Shown here: one piece after another, positions 35,481 through 44,856 of the stretch
Position numbering within the stretch: position 1 is the stretch's first letter
Layout: every line of letters starts with the position of its first letter
NCBI RefSeq assembly: GCF_963675165.1
Contig: NC_087377.1
Location: forward strand, 212,501 to 276,500
Source of the DNA: Halichondria panicea
Lineage: Eukaryota > Porifera > Demospongiae > Suberitida > Halichondriidae
Length of the DNA: 64,000 nt
Direction of reading: 5' to 3'
The notes under the pieces: model-generated
The model's database searches: none
The model's input: only the letters and a program-made list of their open reading frames with translations
Told to the model about the DNA's origin: nothing
Position numbers and translations under genes: made by a program

Positions 35481-37856
35481 AAACGTCACGGTTACAAGAA
35501 TATGACCATATAAATAAAAATACACAAAAGGAACGCCGGAATTATACATAAATATCAAGTAAAACTGAATATAACATAATCATAATTGATACAGTCGGTA
35601 ACTAACTTGGTAATAACTTGGTAACAGTAAATGTACAGTTGGGGTAACTAATGTTGATCTAGCGAGTTTATGAATGATGAGTACTTCACTGTTTTTTTTA
35701 CAGATGTCTCTTTCACACCCATCAACACTTCCTGTATGAAGAGAAGGAGACCAGAGGCAGGTGATGGCTTGGGGTAACTGACGTAGAAGGCGTAGTATGT
35801 TGCAAACAAGCTGATAACCGAGTCAATGACACTGTCGCCCAATACTTCAAAGAGAACCTTTCCTTCACCAAGGATGAACGCTTGCATGCCATTCATGCTC
35901 TTGTCAGCAAAAATTGCAAGCCTTGGCTCTGGAAAGGTCTTTTCAGCTGTCACTTCCTCAATATCAGTCCCGACCTGCAACAAATAAGAGTTAAATTTGA
36001 GGTGCATGCTTCCACAATAATGACGCATGAAAGGAATTACAGTGTTACTGCCTCCGTATATATAGCCGGTAATTTTCGGGAGACAAAATATTTGATTACC
36101 GGCTATAATTATGCGTATATATACGTTGTTGTTTTTACTTACTTGATACAAAGTAAAAGCAGGCAGCTTTAGAGGCTACTCCTGCGGGCCTGAGTTGTGT
36201 GTCAATGAACAGAAGTGCCTTGTATAGCTCCGAGTTTCTTCAGAGTCAGTGGGCACTTCACCATCCATCTGCAGCAGAGTTGGAACAATCTTAGTCCAAG
36301 AATCTCTGATTCGAGAGATGGATTCCTCCCCACACATTAGCGTGAACTCCAACAGCACCTATAACATTTCAAGACTCAATAAATAACCAAGAAAACATTA
36401 GGTGTATAATTATGGTTAAATAAACAATTTAAAGAGCTAACGCACTTACCCATTGATTTCTTGTGAAGAAAGGATTATGTCAAAAGAAGAATTGACATCT
36501 TGTCACCTGAATTTCCAATTCTCTTCCTTCTTTGTTGGTGCGTCTCCCTTATTAACTGTGTAATTGCTGCGTTGTTAGGCGCTTTCTTGGTGAATTGGTC
36601 GCACAACCGACCGTGGTTTCGATCGTATGCACATTCGTCCACACTGATAACGGAGTCTTGGCCAGGAGCGGCTTCAGCTGGCTTTGCTGCAATTATTTGC
36701 ACTAAGTGCGCCTTTTCTGTCTTGAGAGGTTTGATTGCTGACGGTACTGACCTCCTTCTCCGATTTCGGAAGAACATAGTAACCTGTTGCTGCATGCATG
36801 TTGTATGATTAATTATAGCTATAAAAATTTGCAATTATGTATAATTATAATACATGCATGCATTGTTATTATTGTATAATGCTCACCCAATAGCATCCGT
36901 CAATTACAATCTTGTTTCGTAGCTGCTCAAAGCTATTACACAAAACCTTAGCCATTTCGTCGTACTGATTTCCTTTCGGATTCGGGCAAAGACCATAATA
37001 GAAGAGGGAAGCTTCTCGTATTAATGCTAGTTTGTCTTTTCCGTAAATTTGTTTCGCTATTATTGCTCTGTTTACTCTCTCACTGAATACTGGTGGAAGT
37101 GGGCACGGAGTTGGTAGGGTCTTCGTAGGTGCTGCCAGCACCAGTGGGCAAGGAGTTGGTAGGGTCTTCGTAGCATTGCCAGCAATGACTGGACACCAAT
37201 TAAAATATGTCAGTAAATCAGTTAGTAATTTTCTGTATATTACGGTATGATTTTATATGTGTTCTTATGAGACCAAAGGCTATGCTTCCCTTTTTCCCTT
37301 GTAGGGAGCTACTTTCAGTTGATTTGCCGATACAAAGAAGAAGAAATACACCTTAGCTAACCTTGGAATCCCACAAGAAGCTAGCCAGCCAGCTTGTATA
37401 AGTTCCCTAACTGCTTTTGTTGATCAATGTTTCAGCGCTTGTCTCGTGTATTGTATTGTAAAATTTGATTATTTTGTATTTTTGTGTTTGATTTGCGGCA
37501 TTCTTACACATATATTTTCATTTTTGCCGATTGCCAGCAAAAATATACGGCCTACTCTGCTGCTTAAAGCGGCTGCTGCTCGATATAAAGTGGACTAAGC
37601 GGTTCCAAAATGTGTCCAGTTTTGTCAAAAAATCCACAATTATCAATGACGTATCGCATTATCTACACATACCCAAGAGCTGCGTAGAGCCACTAATTTG
37701 GGGAATTCCCCATTAATCGCAATGTACCAGCAATGTAAAGTGAGTGTATATGGCTGCAAGTAAGTATAGGCTAGCAGTCATTTACTTGAAGATAGTAAAT
37801 GTGTACAATCTATCAGGATATATAGTATACTATATTATTATGTTGGGTAGAATTAA

Positions 37857-40436
37857 TCATGATTCAGAGTCAAGTCGTGGCTGTTTGTTCATGTCTACTA
37901 AATCTAATGGAGTTTTTCGTATGTACTTTCGTTTCTTTCGCTTAAATTGTGATGTCTCGTCTATTCTCGCTTCAGCTTTCAGAACCTCCCCCACTGGGTC
38001 ATGCAGATTACTGGAGAAGTAGTGTCTCTTGGCGTCATCATTATTTTTCTCCACCCCTAGAGAAAAAGGTGATTAAAATGTTATCTCTTTACACTCGAAC
38101 TCACCTTGTCCACTAAACATCTTGACATTTCCGTATTTTGAAATAAAGTAAGGGAAGTGAAAGACCAGTGTGTGCATATAGGGCGTAATATTCTTTTCCT
38201 GAAACCCTTGACACTTGTGCTTCAAGCTCAAGAAAAGCCTTATCCAGTCTTTCGCCTATCATGATAGATTATAGTAAATTAGATACAATGGTTCTCCCTA
38301 CTAGTAAACTAACACTATACCTTTTGCTCAACCACTTCACTGGGAGGTGGAGTCCAGCTAGAAACCATCTTATACAAAGAGAGAAATTCCTATAGAGCCA
38401 GACCATATAAATAATTATGTTTGTAAAATGCGAAGGGAAATTTAATTAGTACTCACTGTCCAAAGTTGGGCCATTTTAGCTTGAATTTCTTCCTTCAGTA
38501 GGTCAGCAAACCTCACTGGGAGACGTTCCAGAAACTTCTTGGTGTCGTTCCCCTGCAGTGATGTCCATTCGTAATGTCCAGAAGCTTTGCCATCTGGACC
38601 CCTTGCTTCCCATACCCTGAACGTGATACCACAGTCTTTAACGATCGTCTGTAGTGTTTGTAGGTGAGTGAGTATATGTGCGTTTCCTTGTCTGTCTTGT
38701 TTAGCAGATGCCACTATCTCTAGAATGAGATTTCTTGTTAAAACGTCAGCTATACGTAGGAGTAGGTGTAGCTCATCGGGTATTATATGGTCTGGCTCTA
38801 TGTTCAGTAGTGGTGTTGTAATTGATCCTAGTCGTACACTTGCTGGTTTACTGCTGGGAAGTGCGCCTTTTGCTTGTAGGGAACTCAATGTTCTTGCATT
38901 TGTTACGGTGTAGTCAGCCCTATCCTTTGACATATCCCACCTATAGCGGCAAATGGGGAAGCTAGGTTTAAGCATATAATAATTATAGATATACCTTTCA
39001 TCCTTCTTGATGGTACACCAGACACAAGCGTACATAGAGGTTGCTTTGTTGAGGCCCATACTCAGTAAAAGAAACTAATAATGCAATTTTTATAGTCAGT
39101 AATTAACTATACATTCTCACCTTGTAATCACTACCCAGGAAAAACTCAAGGCGGTACTCTGTTTCATCAACAGTGAGTAGTGGGTGTGAAATGATGTCGT
39201 TCAACTCCTTCAATACCTCAGATAGTCCTGAACTAATTGTTTCATACGACTCTTCGGCTTTTAGGCCAGCAAAAGTATGATTGCCTGTATGAATGTCAAT
39301 ATAAAAATATTTTCACCACTTTCTCGTTTAATATTTTTATTGTTAAGCTTACCCATGCCTGATAAAACATTGTCTTGAATTTCTGGAAATGCAAATGAGA
39401 GAAGTATGATATTGGATGATCTTGTGAATCTGGCTCCGTCACCACTGAGTTTTACTTTTACTGGTTGGGTGATAGCTTTCCCTGAATGAACCTAAAATAA
39501 TAATCCATAATAATAATGTATAATTTCTTCTTTACTTACGATCTTAGCTAGCTCTTCCTGGATTGCAGCTTTCGGTGGTCTATAAGCACCAGGATAAGGA
39601 CCTTCGAGATGTCGGATGTCGAGAGAGTTGTTAATTGAGAGGCGAGCATCCTTGATTCGGTACAGTGGTGGTAAATCAGATGCGACGCTCAATTCATGAT
39701 AAGCTTCGTCACTCACAGCAAACCTGTCAAGTACATAAAGAGCTTGCTGTACCCTCGCAGAATCGTTTGGTGAAAGAGCTGGCGTTTGATGTTGTGGCTT
39801 GTGAGATGGGCTAGATAAAAAATTGAATTTGATGGGAGATCCTGTCTGTTTGCGTAGCTCTAAAGATTCTGGCTGAAGACCGAATGATTCACAAAACCAA
39901 AGCGCTTGCTCTGCAGAGCTCTTACAGTGTGCTAGCTTTCGTTTTACCTGTCGTGGTGATACCTCGTGAACTTTTTTGCCTTTGTTGATGTGTGCTGTGG
40001 TAGGTCTACTTGTTTCGGGGATTGTTGTTGGCTGTGGAGATTCAGTGGATAGTTGCTGCTCAATTTCAGAATACGATTCTGCTTCTCCATCAAGCACGAA
40101 GAGGTTGTATTCTCCAGCAAGTACGGCATACCTCCTTCTTCCTTTTAGCCCCCGTATCCTTCTTGCTACCTTGCTAGCTTGTTCTGCAAGCCTTTTCTCC
40201 AGACGATCGCTTTGTGCTAGTTTAACTATTGTTACCATGCTATTAACTAAGCTAATGAATGTCTCTTCTGCCTTCTTGTTCATGTACCAATGATGCAGCA
40301 ACTCGATAGGAATAGAGAGAGAGAAGTTTGGCTGTACTTGTGGTTCTGTGTGGCTGAAGTCAGAGTACTTCTTTGCTGAATTTGAGATGGTGATGGACAG
40401 GCTCTCTGCTCTTCTGGACTGCTTGTTTACTGCCAT
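37857..40436 (-). CDS. Transposase-like DDE/RNase H-type protein, 727 aa, intact
   Basis: Eight exons (39540-40436, 39353-39491, 39121-39284, 38995-39074, 38457-38940, 38321-38389, 38105-38255, 37857-38056) with good GT-AG borders sum to 2184 nt, exactly 728 codons with no internal stop. Candidate catalytic residues are D317 in KLSGDGARF, D398 in FFLGSDYKFLLL, and E664 in SGQGVEKNNDDAKR. A CVWC pair (C417/C420) and ELHLLLRIADVL follow the second Asp, an order seen in several DDE superfamilies (for example RAG1/Transib and CMC types). The N-terminal 290 residues are basic and rich in S/T/P. It lies between 13-bp inverted repeats and is the natural mobility gene of the inner element. I recall similar unnamed proteins from other invertebrates but cannot name the superfamily without a search. 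Confidence 0.85.
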
Positions 40437-40650
40437 AGCTAGGAGGCCCGGGATAATGGAACAAAAGGTCCCTTGAGCTGTTATGTAACAAAATTAATTA
40501 GCCATGTCAATATGAGTGGGCGGGTGAATAGGCTGCGGTGTTATCACCCACTAAATTAACCACAGTACTCATTCAATAGCATGATAACACTTCTCAGATG
40601 CATTATGGCGGGTATTTTGCGACCTCTGGTTCTCTTAGACTTATTACAAA
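40437..40650. promoter_or_regulatory. Divergent intergenic region, transposase/kinase
   Basis: The 214 bp between the start codons of the minus-strand transposase-like gene and the plus-strand kinase must hold both promoters. It contains agtgggcgggtgaata and an AT-rich part. No TATA box was assigned with confidence. Confidence 0.4.
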
Positions 40651-41781
40651 ATGGCTGACCAGACATTCTCAAGATCCAAGCTCAAGAGGCTCAATCGAAA
40701 AGCTAGAGTTGACAAAATTGGCAAGCAGCTGTGTATGGAGAAGAAGAGCCTTGAATGTGCCGAGAAAAATGTTCAGAATTGGAAGAAGAAGGCAATAGAT
40801 TATAAACTGTAAGTTGCTGATTAACAGCCAGTAAATAATATTGTTCATACAGGGAACTCAACGTGTATCGAGCTAAGCAATTACGGACAGGAACTCTGGG
40901 AACATCCTGCAGTCACCAACGACCACTAAAGTTACTAACAGCAGCCATGAAGACGAGTGCAATCAGTCTACCCAAGGCAACTCCAAGAATGTGTACGAAT
41001 GCTGATATTATGCGAGGAGTTACTGTAGTTCCAGAGATAAGTGAGAAATGTTTAGCAGATGGGGGTGGTGATGTTCATATAGGAAATGGTCGGTTTGGAA
41101 CATGCTCTCGTATGATTTTTAAAGAGTGTTTTGACGTCTGTGTCAAAACATTTACTTCCGACTCCTCAATCGAATCGATTAGGCATGAAGCCAGTATATT
41201 ACTTACATTAAATTCCAGCCCTTATATACCACACTGTTTTGGTATTTGTTCCACCAGGAGAGCTTTAGTAATGTCTAATGTAAGCGTGAAGCAGCAACAA
41301 GTTTCATTATAATTATTCTGCCTTGTATTCGACTAACGAAATTAAATTAAGCCCTAAGACATGGATGCAAATACTGATCCAAATTTGTGATGGTCTATCA
41401 TACATGCACAAGCTGAGTATTCTTCACAATGATCTTAAAGTAGACAACGTAGTATTAGGGACTACTTTGTTAGAATGTATCCGGCCATGTATTGTGGATT
41501 TTGGAAAGGCATGTAAAGAAAAGCATGCTAAGAAGTACTGCCTGACCGAGGAACAGAAAGTTATTTACATAAAAGAACACACTCAAGTAGCTCCAGACCT
41601 CCGCGATGGGCTTGTTTTACAGAGCACACAGAGCGATATATACTCATTAGGTAGAATAATGAAGAAGATGAACTCCATTGTAATTAAGTCAACTGAACTT
41701 GCCCATGTAATTAAGGAATGTCTTTCTTATCATGCTCATGACCGTCCTAGCTTAGAAACCATTTCTCTTAATGTTGAATGA
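40651..41781 (+). CDS. Protein kinase carried by inner element, one frameshift
   Basis: Exon 1 (40651-40808) encodes a basic, coiled-coil-like N-terminus (MADQTFSRSKLKRLNRKARV) and splices to exon 2 (40853-41781). Kinase motifs in order: glycine loop IGNGRFGTC, VAIK-like VCVKTF, alpha-C RHEASIL, catalytic loop LHNDLKVDN (HND in place of HRD), DFG in CIVDFGKA, an APE-like APDLRDG, SDIYSLGRIM, and the final arginine in HDRPSLETI. A one-base deletion at about 41310 (ttataattattc) shifts the frame in the hinge between the lobes; every motif is otherwise present. It may be a real lesion or a sequence error. The small C-lobe and HND make it an unusual kinase. Substrate unknown. It starts 214 bp from the transposase-like gene, divergently. 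Confidence 0.8.
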
Positions 41782-42069
41782 CTATGTGACTAATTATGTC
41801 TTACATTCATTCGTTCATGTTTAAATCTGGTGCTAGCTTTAACTATGACATAGTCTATGTATAATTGTAGGCAAATCCGTGCTCTCTAATGGAAGGCTGA
41901 CAAGGTTAGCTGTAAGTCGGGATGCGTGTTGACCCAGCCATTTGTTTGAGAGTCATTAAAAGCATTATGGTAGAGAATTGGCCTGAAGCAGTTAGTTATG
42001 AGTCACATAGTGCGTATTGGCTGCTCAGGTTGGGCCATGCATGCATTAACAATTAACAATTAACAATGA

Positions 42070-42894
42070 TCAACAACGTTTTTTCACCAGATTTACACAT
42101 ACAATTTCAGATAGTAGTCTAGGTGACTCTAACATTTCACCATTGCTATTTCTATATGTTTTCGGTCCATACTTAATTCTAGGACATACTACAATAGGAA
42201 AATCTACTGTGCAGCCATTGCCATATCTATCATACAAAATATACCAACTACCTATAAAATATTCATCGTTAAAATCAGTTTGTTGAAGTTGGAGCTTTCC
42301 GCGGGTCATTTGGGTTCCTCGATCTTTAAATAGGTAACGAAATACATCTAGCCGGAAATCTATAGTTAAATTACAGGATTTTACAGTACCTAAATTTAAA
42401 CTACATTGAATGGACAGAACAAATCTTCTTGTTGCGTCGCTTATAAGCTCGGTATGTGGTGCTTGTGGTGTATTGTATGATCTGAAAGGGGGGAAATGTG
42501 CAGATATAATTATAGTAATACACAGTGCACTGCCATGCCATACTTAATAATCTTACTGGATAGTAGAGATAGTCACATCTTCCTTAGCGACCCATGAAGA
42601 CTGTTCCAATGAGTAACCAGCCCACTTTACCAAATACTCCGTTTTCCCCTAGAAATAGAATCAATCGTATAGGGCTATATATCATAAAATGTTACGTACC
42701 TTAGTTAGTCGATGATGAATTATCCTCTCAACAAGGAAGACCCCTTCTGGCAGACTGTCATCAGACTTACAGCTCAGAGTGGTTCTCACATCTCGTGCTT
42801 CCCGCATGCTAGATAAGTCCATGTCAGCCGAGCTTATATTATGGAGGTAGGAATAGTATCCTTTCTCAGGTCGTTGCCTCTTTGACGAGTCCAT
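42070..42894 (-). CDS. Chromodomain protein carried by inner element, 232 aa, intact
   Basis: Exons 42700-42894, 42557-42648 and 42070-42481 sum to 699 nt (233 codons), open throughout. Residues about 53-95 form a chromodomain split by the first intron: FLVERIIHHRLTK then GKTEYLVKWAGYSLEQSSWV. It keeps the YLVKWAGY..SSW core and aromatic positions that in HP1/Polycomb-type domains bind methylated lysine. The remaining 137 residues (ending IVCVNLVKKRC) match nothing I know. In LTR chromoviruses a chromodomain steers integration to marked chromatin; a similar role for this element is inference. It diverges from the MGNCC gene, with starts 164 bp apart. Confidence 0.88.
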
Positions 42895-43058
42895 AACAGG
42901 TCGATCTGCATGAACAGGTCTGCTGGAAGATTAATAATTAGTGACCATAAAGATTTTATCTCTATTCATTTGAACACTTTACTACCATTGATTGCATGCT
43001 ATTACTGTCATGTGAATCAGTAAATTACTATACAAAAAAGAACAGAGAAAGAATTGAG
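42895..43058. promoter_or_regulatory. Divergent intergenic region, chromodomain/MGNCC genes
   Basis: This 164-bp gap separates the start codons of the minus-strand chromodomain gene and the plus-strand MGNCC gene, repeating the layout of the other gene pair. No core promoter motif was assigned. Confidence 0.35.
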
Positions 43059-43436
43059 ATGGGAAATTGCTGCCACTTCCACCCGTACCCGTACTACATC
43101 GACTCCGACTTACGAGAGATCAGGCACCACAGGAACTCCTTTCCTATTGGGTCGCTAGTAAAGATGGGAACTGAGGGAAAACAATTTTATTTTACAACAG
43201 CAGATGATACTGGAACACATTATTTTCCGATGGGGTCTCAGAAAAAGGCCCAGAACTATTTAAAGAAAGTTGTGAGGCTCAGCCAAACATACGATGTCCA
43301 GGTGTCAGAAGTTTTAAATCCAGACTACACGTTGCTAGGATTTAGAGCCAAAAAAACAAAAGAAGAAAGCACAAAAGAAGCGGACAACAAAGAGCCAAGA
43401 AAGAAAGTTAAATTTAATTTAGTAAAAGTGTTGTAA
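43059..43436 (+). CDS. Small MGNCC-starting protein, 125 aa
   Basis: This single exon is open to a TAA at 43434-43436. The start at 43059 is preferred over an upstream in-frame ATG at 42996 because MGNCC is a classic N-terminal lipidation context: glycine myristoylation followed by cysteine palmitoylation. The middle has balanced composition (SFPIGSLVKMGTEGKQFYF, GTHYFPMGSQKKAQNYLKK) and the C-terminus is strongly basic (EPRKKVKFNLVKVL). No family is recognised. It is the rightmost gene of the inner element. If the lipid signal is real it would sit at membranes; with the basic tail, nuclear or nucleic-acid binding is the alternative. Confidence 0.65.
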   Translation: MGNCCHFHPYPYYIDSDLREIRHHRNSFPIGSLVKMGTEGKQFYFTTADDTGTHYFPMGSQKKAQNYLKKVVRLSQTYDVQVSEVLNPDYTLLGFRAKKTKEESTKEADNKEPRKKVKFNLVKVL

Positions 43437-43508
43437 CTAGAACAGGACTGAGAAGAATATGACTGAGAACTGACTACTATACTGTACTGTTCTATATAAT
43501 TATTTACT

Positions 43509-43640
43509 GTGGTAGATCTCTCTAGTCACTGTTACAGGCCGGTAAAAGTAATAACAAAATACTGAGCTGGCAGTACTGCATGCTCAGTATTTTGTTATTA
43601 CTTGTACCGGCCTGTAACAGTGACTAGAGAGATCTGCCAC
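43509..43640. repeat. 59-bp-arm inverted repeat (hairpin)
   Basis: The left arm 43509-43567 and right arm 43582-43640 are reverse complements with two mismatches, separated by 14 bases. Arms include gatctctctagtcactgtta and cggtaaaagtaataacaaaa. It lies between the last gene and the right terminus of the inner element, so it may be a nested foldback insertion or a structural part of the element end. Confidence 0.9.
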
Positions 43641-44856
43641 AGGATAGAATCTACCACAGAAGTCTACATGAGCTCAACCAACAGGTAAACAATAATATTA
43701 CTCACCAGCACCAGTGCAGTGAACGTAGCTAGTTCAGCGAAGATCTTGCGCACGCACTACAATAGTCTATAGTAGCATTTATTTCCGCAGTAGTTAAAAT
43801 GATTGAGTAATATTTGAATTTTCATATAAATAGAACAAATATTTAGACAGGATGCTAGAACAATAGTGTCCAAAATACAATGGCAATTGCTGGCAATGGT
43901 GCTGCCAGCACTTTGTACTCTTCTGTCCGTGGCTTTTTAGCAGGTGGTTCAGCTGCTTCATCACTTCTTGCAGGCAGCATTGCTAGAGGATAGTTGGCCA
44001 CAGCTTCGTCCTCAAAATCCCCCATGTTGTAATCCTCTATCAGATTATAGCTGGCACTCATTTGACGTATCGTACCACTCATGGAGCAATTTTCCTGTAG
44101 TTATAAAAGAACGTATATATTATGTCTCAAACTTAACACCACAGAATAAGGGTATTTCGTGGCCAAAAAATTGCCGCTTTGTTAAAGAATTGCACACTTG
44201 TGCAATGTATGAAATAGAAGCCCCTGTAGTGTGCTATGGTGGTTAGCAACAATTGTAGTTGAACGCCCACATTTACCACAATGCTCAGCTCAGTAGAATG
44301 GGGTAGAATGAGAATTGCAGTTGAATACAGTACAATGGGTACAATAGAGCACGGTATAGAATGGGTAGCATATTCTAGAATTGCAGTACAATGGGTTAAC
44401 TCTTTTAAGCACTCAACAATTAAAATTACCTGCTTATAACTATGGTACTAAAGTAAAATGTGTAAATGATTCTAACCTTTTCAAGAAGAGATTTGAGTGC
44501 CATCCTCAATCCACTCTGCGGCAACATATGCTTAAATTCCTCAAAGTCATTGGGTAGTTGAAGCAGTGCAATGCCATCAATTAGGTTTTCTGTAAGTGCA
44601 AACAGATAATAATGTACTATAAAAGCTAAGAATATACCTAAGAAGACACTATAATAATTATTAGTCTACGAGTTGTACCTTTGAATGCAGAAACTACTGT
44701 TTCAGGAAAGCAGTTTTCCCTCAAGAGTCTCCCCACATCAGTTACAGACAACTTTTCCATCTCTTTCAAGGTTCTTTCAAGGTTTCTAAGTAACAAGTCT
44801 AGAGAATATTGCTCTAGGCTATATCTAGTGCGCATGCGCTCTAGATAAAACTGCAT

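Follow-up and report, generated by a model that had tools for sequence, protein, structure and literature searches.

A four-gene mobile element lies at positions 37174 to 43898 of the stretch of the Halichondria panicea genome analyzed here (64,000 nucleotides, NC_087377.1, positions 212,501 to 276,500; hereafter the window). The element is 6,725 base pairs (bp) long and encodes a RAG1-like DDE transposase, a protein kinase, a chromodomain protein, and a small protein that begins with MGNCC (Table 1). It is probably a cut-and-paste DNA transposon that is autonomous and recently active, represents a new lineage within the RAG1/Transib/CACTA-type (CMCT) group, and moves by the mechanism proposed below. 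The four genes are mobile as one unit between identical ends, and insertion is free of target-site duplication.

The left end of the element, CATTGCCAGCAAT, recurs at the right end as its exact reverse complement, in agreement with the original prediction of 13-bp perfect inverted ends. A DNA search with the element across the genome (131 Mb, 39 contigs) identified 14 end-to-end copies spread over 8 contigs. Because these uninterrupted copies (14/14) begin and finish at exactly the same bases amid different flanks, the ends are beyond chance. Two further copies are split, with their halves 10.5 kb (contig C17) and 11.7 kb (contig C12) apart because other elements landed inside, and three are damaged (C1:195630, C1:13.1 Mb, and C5:1.24 Mb). 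Shorter, more diverged matches on C1, C3, C9, and C13 are left out of this count. Sequence from all four genes, partly broken, is present in 18 of the 19 copies; the exception is the C5 copy, where most of the chromodomain gene is missing. Exact matches to the 13-bp end number 43 across the genome, versus 21 for the reversed control pattern. The 43 comprise 32 ends in 16 pairs around the element, two at damaged copies missing the other end, one at a relative on C3, and eight that are unpaired. Recurrence of the ends and genes at unrelated loci had been set beforehand as a test, and all four genes are present at each of the 16 loci that have both exact ends. The contrary outcome, ends occurring only once or other copies without the accessory genes, was not seen: none of the exact-end pairs among the 43 matches lacks the four genes (mismatched ends were not searched).

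Between the ends, the genes form the two divergent pairs described in the original prediction, transposase (-) with kinase (+) and chromodomain gene (-) with MGNCC gene (+). The gene models are manual predictions from sequence, with GT-AG introns. The prediction of two multi-exon, fully open genes needs revision. Three genes have introns (8 exons in the transposase, 3 in the chromodomain gene, 2 in the kinase) and the kinase of the window copy is not open; the transposase and chromodomain genes do stand as open frames across the copies (13/14 and 14/14).

In both split copies the insert lies in the region separating the divergent transposase and kinase genes, and the two insertion points are about 70 bp from each other. 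By eye, the open reading frames (ORFs) of the 10.5-kb C17 insert (copy L023+L024, C17:2200599-2211148) resemble a reverse transcriptase, a tyrosine recombinase (DIRS-like), and a RecQ helicase. The 11.7-kb C12 insert (copy L025+L026, C12:4257496-4269168) contains one 417-amino-acid ORF twice, 5.4 kb apart, that looks piggyBac-like by eye.

The bases adjoining the element differ at every site and are not duplicated. We searched for empty counterparts with the joined flanks of 13/14 copies, scoring 40 of 2,770 candidates, and eight of the 13 matched a paralogous site without the element. The target-site duplication is 0 bp in all eight empty sites read (one per copy). The junction is length-neutral in seven of these comparisons; copy L009 lacks one base relative to its counterpart, and the empty counterpart of copy L021 has two base differences near the junction. 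Of 15 sites, 12 have C and three have T as the fourth base beyond the right end, a position whose information content, 1.44 bits, exceeds the 99% level (0.94) of a null drawn from the flanks. The motif AAATTT was found at none of the 15 junctions. The host site of the window copy (37100-37173 and 43899-44100) is repeated and gene-like and contains a 45-bp tandem repeat. The host reading frame there is continuous across the empty junction by eye, and the joined flanks have seven other near-identical places.

The transposase contains D317, D398, C417-x2-C420, H485, H639-x4-H644, and E664, which bears out the earlier choice of the D..D..CxxC..E protein as the mobility candidate and places it in a RAG1-type family. 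The D, D, and E columns are invariant in 24 homologs; in a wider alignment of 54 homologs both aspartates are invariant and the glutamate is conserved in at least 90%. The C(2)C and H(3-4)H pairs between the second D and the E (C417/C420 and H639/H644) are invariant in both alignments. The termini of the element, CATTGCC...GGCAATG, have the CA..TG form of RAG1-type (CMCT) transposases. Family profiles and family members gave matches to RAG1, and the modeled transposase homolog P0007 has the RAG1 core fold, aligning structurally with RAG1 at ~14% identity. The family has RAG1-type catalytic and zinc-binding residues, with the core fold seen in the modeled homolog. Transposase homologs include proteins of Dysidea avara and Pocillopora. 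A Pfam scan of the four proteins found no transposase family, and for transposase homolog P0001 NCBIfam returned only a single weak coiled-coil match. Families missing from the VIA list in the fold comparison are not thereby excluded. Scans of viral and GTDB contigs for elements in other records found no transposase relative.

The kinase of intact copies contains the catalytic lysine (K151), a glutamate (E165), the HxD motif (HND245), N250, and the DFG motif (D267FG), and a provisional 335-amino-acid model scores 64.2 bits against Pfam Pkinase (cut-off 31.7). These features are those of the protein kinase superfamily and the protein is predicted to be active. In the window copy, the reading frame of the kinase is disrupted by 4 inserted bp, which are also present in copies L009 and L012 and in the interrupted C17 copy. 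One more of the 14 uninterrupted copies is broken by a 1-bp deletion, and the gene is whole in the other ten (360 amino acids; 363 in one). Since the same broken kinase is found at four sites, the kinase is not needed in cis, and the intact copies could supply it in trans. The provisional model, in which an intron skipped the frameshift, was dropped, as other copies are open for 360 amino acids and the kinase family conserves the skipped stretch.

The solved chains nearest to the kinase are LRRK2 and other kinases. At E<=1e-3 there are 40 homologs among 1,576 candidates, one of which is the element itself (99%). An alignment of 31 of them shows the lysine and HND to be invariant, with the glutamate and the DF of DFG conserved in at least 90%. 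The homolog P0099 is 41% identical and alike over 98% of the length, including the N-terminal part, which is basic in both proteins; NCBIfam assigns P0099 to generic kinases. The contig scans also gave kinase matches on one viral and 35 bacterial (GTDB) contigs at no more than 45% identity, taken here as probable general kinase similarity. The match on the 38-kb viral contig (L060, IMGVR_UViG_3300032227_001814) is a short kinase-family match with 45% identity over 44 residues. Two 36%-identity matches to the element kinase, at C1:4737469 and C1:4777411, lie 40 kb apart and have open frames of 370 amino acids.

The chromodomain protein matches Pfam Chromo at residues 54-99 (47.3 bits, cut-off 25.1, E 2e-12) and is closest to CBX2, CBX6, and HP1 chains. 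It carries the cage-type residues F53, W74, and Y77 at what we take to be the aromatic cage positions. A CBX/HP1-type chromodomain is thus indicated, and histone binding is predicted. The C-terminal part of the protein has no family match.

The MGNCC protein has no family match in Pfam or NCBIfam, and no database search with it was made outside this genome. Two of its 13 open copies have a 15-bp in-frame deletion, and its structure model is useless (predicted local distance difference test score of 44.5). The original prediction of a lipid-anchor-like protein was drawn from the MGNCC start alone. That start is present, but it reads MGNCCH by eye, with histidine at position 6, and the N-myristoylation pattern MG-x(3)-[small] (PROSITE PS00008) does not allow histidine at this position. 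The mechanism proposed below assigns this protein no role.

A decayed relative at C13:3139700-3145600 contains the chromodomain gene (+), the kinase (-), and the transposase (+), in the same order and orientation as in the window element, with 24-75% amino-acid identity in aligned blocks; an MGNCC gene was not found at this locus. The claim that this is a multi-gene element holds at this distance as well, in that three of the four genes that move together are still side by side. In the kinase alignment (159 codons), identity at codon positions 1/2/3 is 0.65/0.77/0.43; the transposase (489 codons) gives 0.56/0.73/0.36 and the chromodomain gene (184 codons) 0.45/0.64/0.36. The equal divergence of the three positions that is expected without constraint was seen in none of them. 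The ratios of nonsynonymous to synonymous differences (pN/pS), 0.35 (0.26-0.45), 0.41 (0.37-0.47), and 0.57 (0.47-0.70), respectively, are only indicative, given saturation at synonymous sites and an alignment restricted to blocks chosen for their similarity. The kinase and chromodomain gene have been kept with the transposase through deep divergence, under constraint at the codon level. A further stretch, C12:3272398-3274153, matches the kinase-chromodomain part of the C13 relative at 65-71%; positions 1818-1943, where the query ends, also belong to a dispersed repeat.

The relatives on C3 and at C13:2.5 Mb were not used for nonsynonymous and synonymous substitution rates (dN/dS) because they have many small deletions and few substitutions. 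The pair at C13:2522900-2553700 (L047 and L048) looks shredded, with 81 small deletions of 1-32 bp plus 14 insertions versus 69 substitutions in aligned stretches. Two other damaged copies have 45 substitutions, 9 deletions, and 11 insertions, and 24, 5, and 8, respectively. A short relative on C3 (L096, C3:3613545-3613834) resembles the shredded pair by eye. A local mutation process, a defense, or an assembly fault are candidate causes of the shredding.

Table 1. Features of the element in the window.
Feature	Position	Strand	Basis
Left junction; flanking host bases join without gain or loss at empty paralogous site	37173..37174	.	Empty-site comparison
Left terminal inverted repeat, 13 bp, CA... 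terminus	37174..37186	+	Same end base in 14/14 uninterrupted copies
RAG1-like DDE transposase, 727 amino acids, 8 exons	37857..40436	-	Manual gene model; open in 13/14 copies
Transposase exons	40436-39540, 39491-39353, 39284-39121, 39074-38995, 38940-38457, 38389-38321, 38255-38105, 38056-37857	-	
Protein kinase gene, 2 exons, 360 amino acids in intact copies; frameshifted in window copy	40651..41781	+	Pfam Pkinase; intact model from copy L010
Chromodomain protein, 232 amino acids, 3 exons (42894-42700, 42648-42557, 42481-42070)	42070..42894	-	Manual model; open in 14/14 copies
MGNCC protein, 125 amino acids, one exon	43059..43436	+	Manual model; open in 13/14 copies
Abutting 76-bp inverted repeat, 91% complementary, between MGNCC gene and right end	43499..43650	.	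Other copies give reverse-strand matches to this stretch
Right terminal inverted repeat, exact reverse complement of left	43886..43898	-	Same end base in 14/14 uninterrupted copies

In the mechanism that we propose, the transposase would pair the CATTGCC ends, cut them, and join both strands of the target at directly opposed phosphates. Such a blunt target cut would leave no gap and therefore no duplication. The transposase would favor targets with C as the fourth base past the right end. The PHD finger of RAG2 directs RAG1 to chromatin by reading histone tails, and the chromodomain protein may likewise read methylated histone tails and bring the complex to chosen chromatin. The kinase, possibly acting in trans, would phosphorylate the transposase or host factors and so set the time or place of movement. 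As in the original prediction, the accessory proteins could thereby govern the place and time of movement or the host signals to which it responds.

Rather than steer the transposase, the accessory proteins may counter host silencing; they might, for example, compete with HP1-like proteins or phosphorylate a silencing factor. This alternative deserves to be taken seriously, though we would not bet on it. The nearness of the chromodomain to CBX/HP1 chains, with its three presumed cage residues, is in its favor, as is a kinase that acts in trans or is dispensable in cis; sequence does not separate it from steering. It is unlikely that an ordinary transposon, amplified once, captured the kinase, chromodomain, and MGNCC genes from the host and carries them as passengers. 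The 14 uninterrupted copies are so alike that one recent amplification is indicated, and the loss of the kinase frame in four of them and the failure to find MGNCC in the C13 relative fit passengers too. Against this, the C13 relative retains the other three genes in order and orientation with codon-position constraint on all of them, and a kinase of the same family (P0099) exists in another record. Very improbably, the element is an ordinary Transib or RAGL element whose duplication is missing through decay or misplaced ends; the RAG1-type fold of the homolog and the CA..TG termini would suit it, but the empty sites without duplication contradict it. Segmental duplications or assembly artifacts would account for near-identical copies, but can be set aside given 14 copies on 8 contigs, likeness that ends at the same base on both sides amid different flanks, and empty counterparts for eight copies.

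Several points weigh against the favored reading, an autonomous RAG1-type transposon with accessory genes of its own. The fold model is of homolog P0007, which is 40% identical to window residues 251-706, and not of the window protein, whose residues 1-250 fall outside the model. With the full-length transposase profile, each RAG1 match consists of two weak stretches, neither significant alone, and coiled-coil chains likewise appear at E<=1. No empty site was found for five of the 13 joined flanks. The chromodomain protein has no relatives at E<=1e-3 among 61 candidates. The C12 stretch related to the C13 element was listed by the chromodomain search and is missing from the kinase protein search. 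The 14 young copies differ by 27 coding and 15 non-coding substitutions, which gives no power for selection. The broken kinases, the failure to find MGNCC in the C13 relative, and the saturation and choice of codons in that comparison also count here.

A stronger form of the proposal is that the element is a second, independent RAG1-type recombinase with a dedicated histone-reader subunit (a chromodomain replacing the RAG2 PHD finger), a built-in kinase licensing switch, and blunt, duplication-free insertion. We offer this form only tentatively and think it doubtful as a whole. Vertebrates owe V(D)J recombination to RAG1-type enzymes, and how these enzymes came by a chromatin-reading partner remains an open question. 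With a chromodomain protein and a kinase beside its RAG1-type transposase, this living element would be a test bed for that question. If duplication-free insertion is confirmed biochemically, the spacing of strand transfer in the RAG1 fold can be zero, which would also suggest a seamless integration tool. The analysis further provides a likely fold and role for a set of "uncharacterized" animal proteins.

In titles and the beginnings of abstracts, we found no description of this gene set or of a RAG1-type transposon without duplications; Repbase was outside the search and may hold an entry. Alpha-kinases are an atypical kinase class. IS3EU elements, in the excerpt seen of Kojima (2025; PMC12730594), encode an alpha-kinase and make 6-bp duplications. 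They resemble our element as DNA transposons in which a kinase gene runs opposite to the transposase gene, but belong to another superfamily, whereas our element has a classical protein kinase and no duplication. Spy elements (PHIS superfamily) are PIF/Harbinger relatives that prefer AAATTT and make no target-site duplications, according to the portion consulted of PMC4482050. The absence of duplication is common to both, but our element lacks AAATTT at its junctions and its transposase is RAG1-type. RAG and Transib make 5-bp duplications, as stated in the part consulted of PMC7204232, versus 0 bp here. RAGL elements (ProtoRAG, with RAG1L and RAG2L) and vertebrate RAG1/RAG2 share that 5-bp duplication. 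They also differ in having heptamers like those of recombination signal sequences, where our element has CATTGCC termini, and a RAG2-like kelch and PHD gene, where ours has the chromodomain gene, the kinase, and MGNCC; the Pfam scan of the four proteins gave neither a kelch nor a PHD match at E<=1. CMCT transposases have C(2)C and H(3-4)H between the second D and the E, and duplications of 2-5 bp are given for the clade (same excerpt of PMC12730594, which describes no lineage with our gene set). Our element is like them in both motifs and in its CA..TG termini, and unlike them in making no duplication. Because it has every CMCT feature but the duplication, Transib and RAG duplicate 5 bp, and Spy is a PIF/Harbinger relative, we place the element as RAG1-type in predicted fold and motifs and as a member of no named superfamily.
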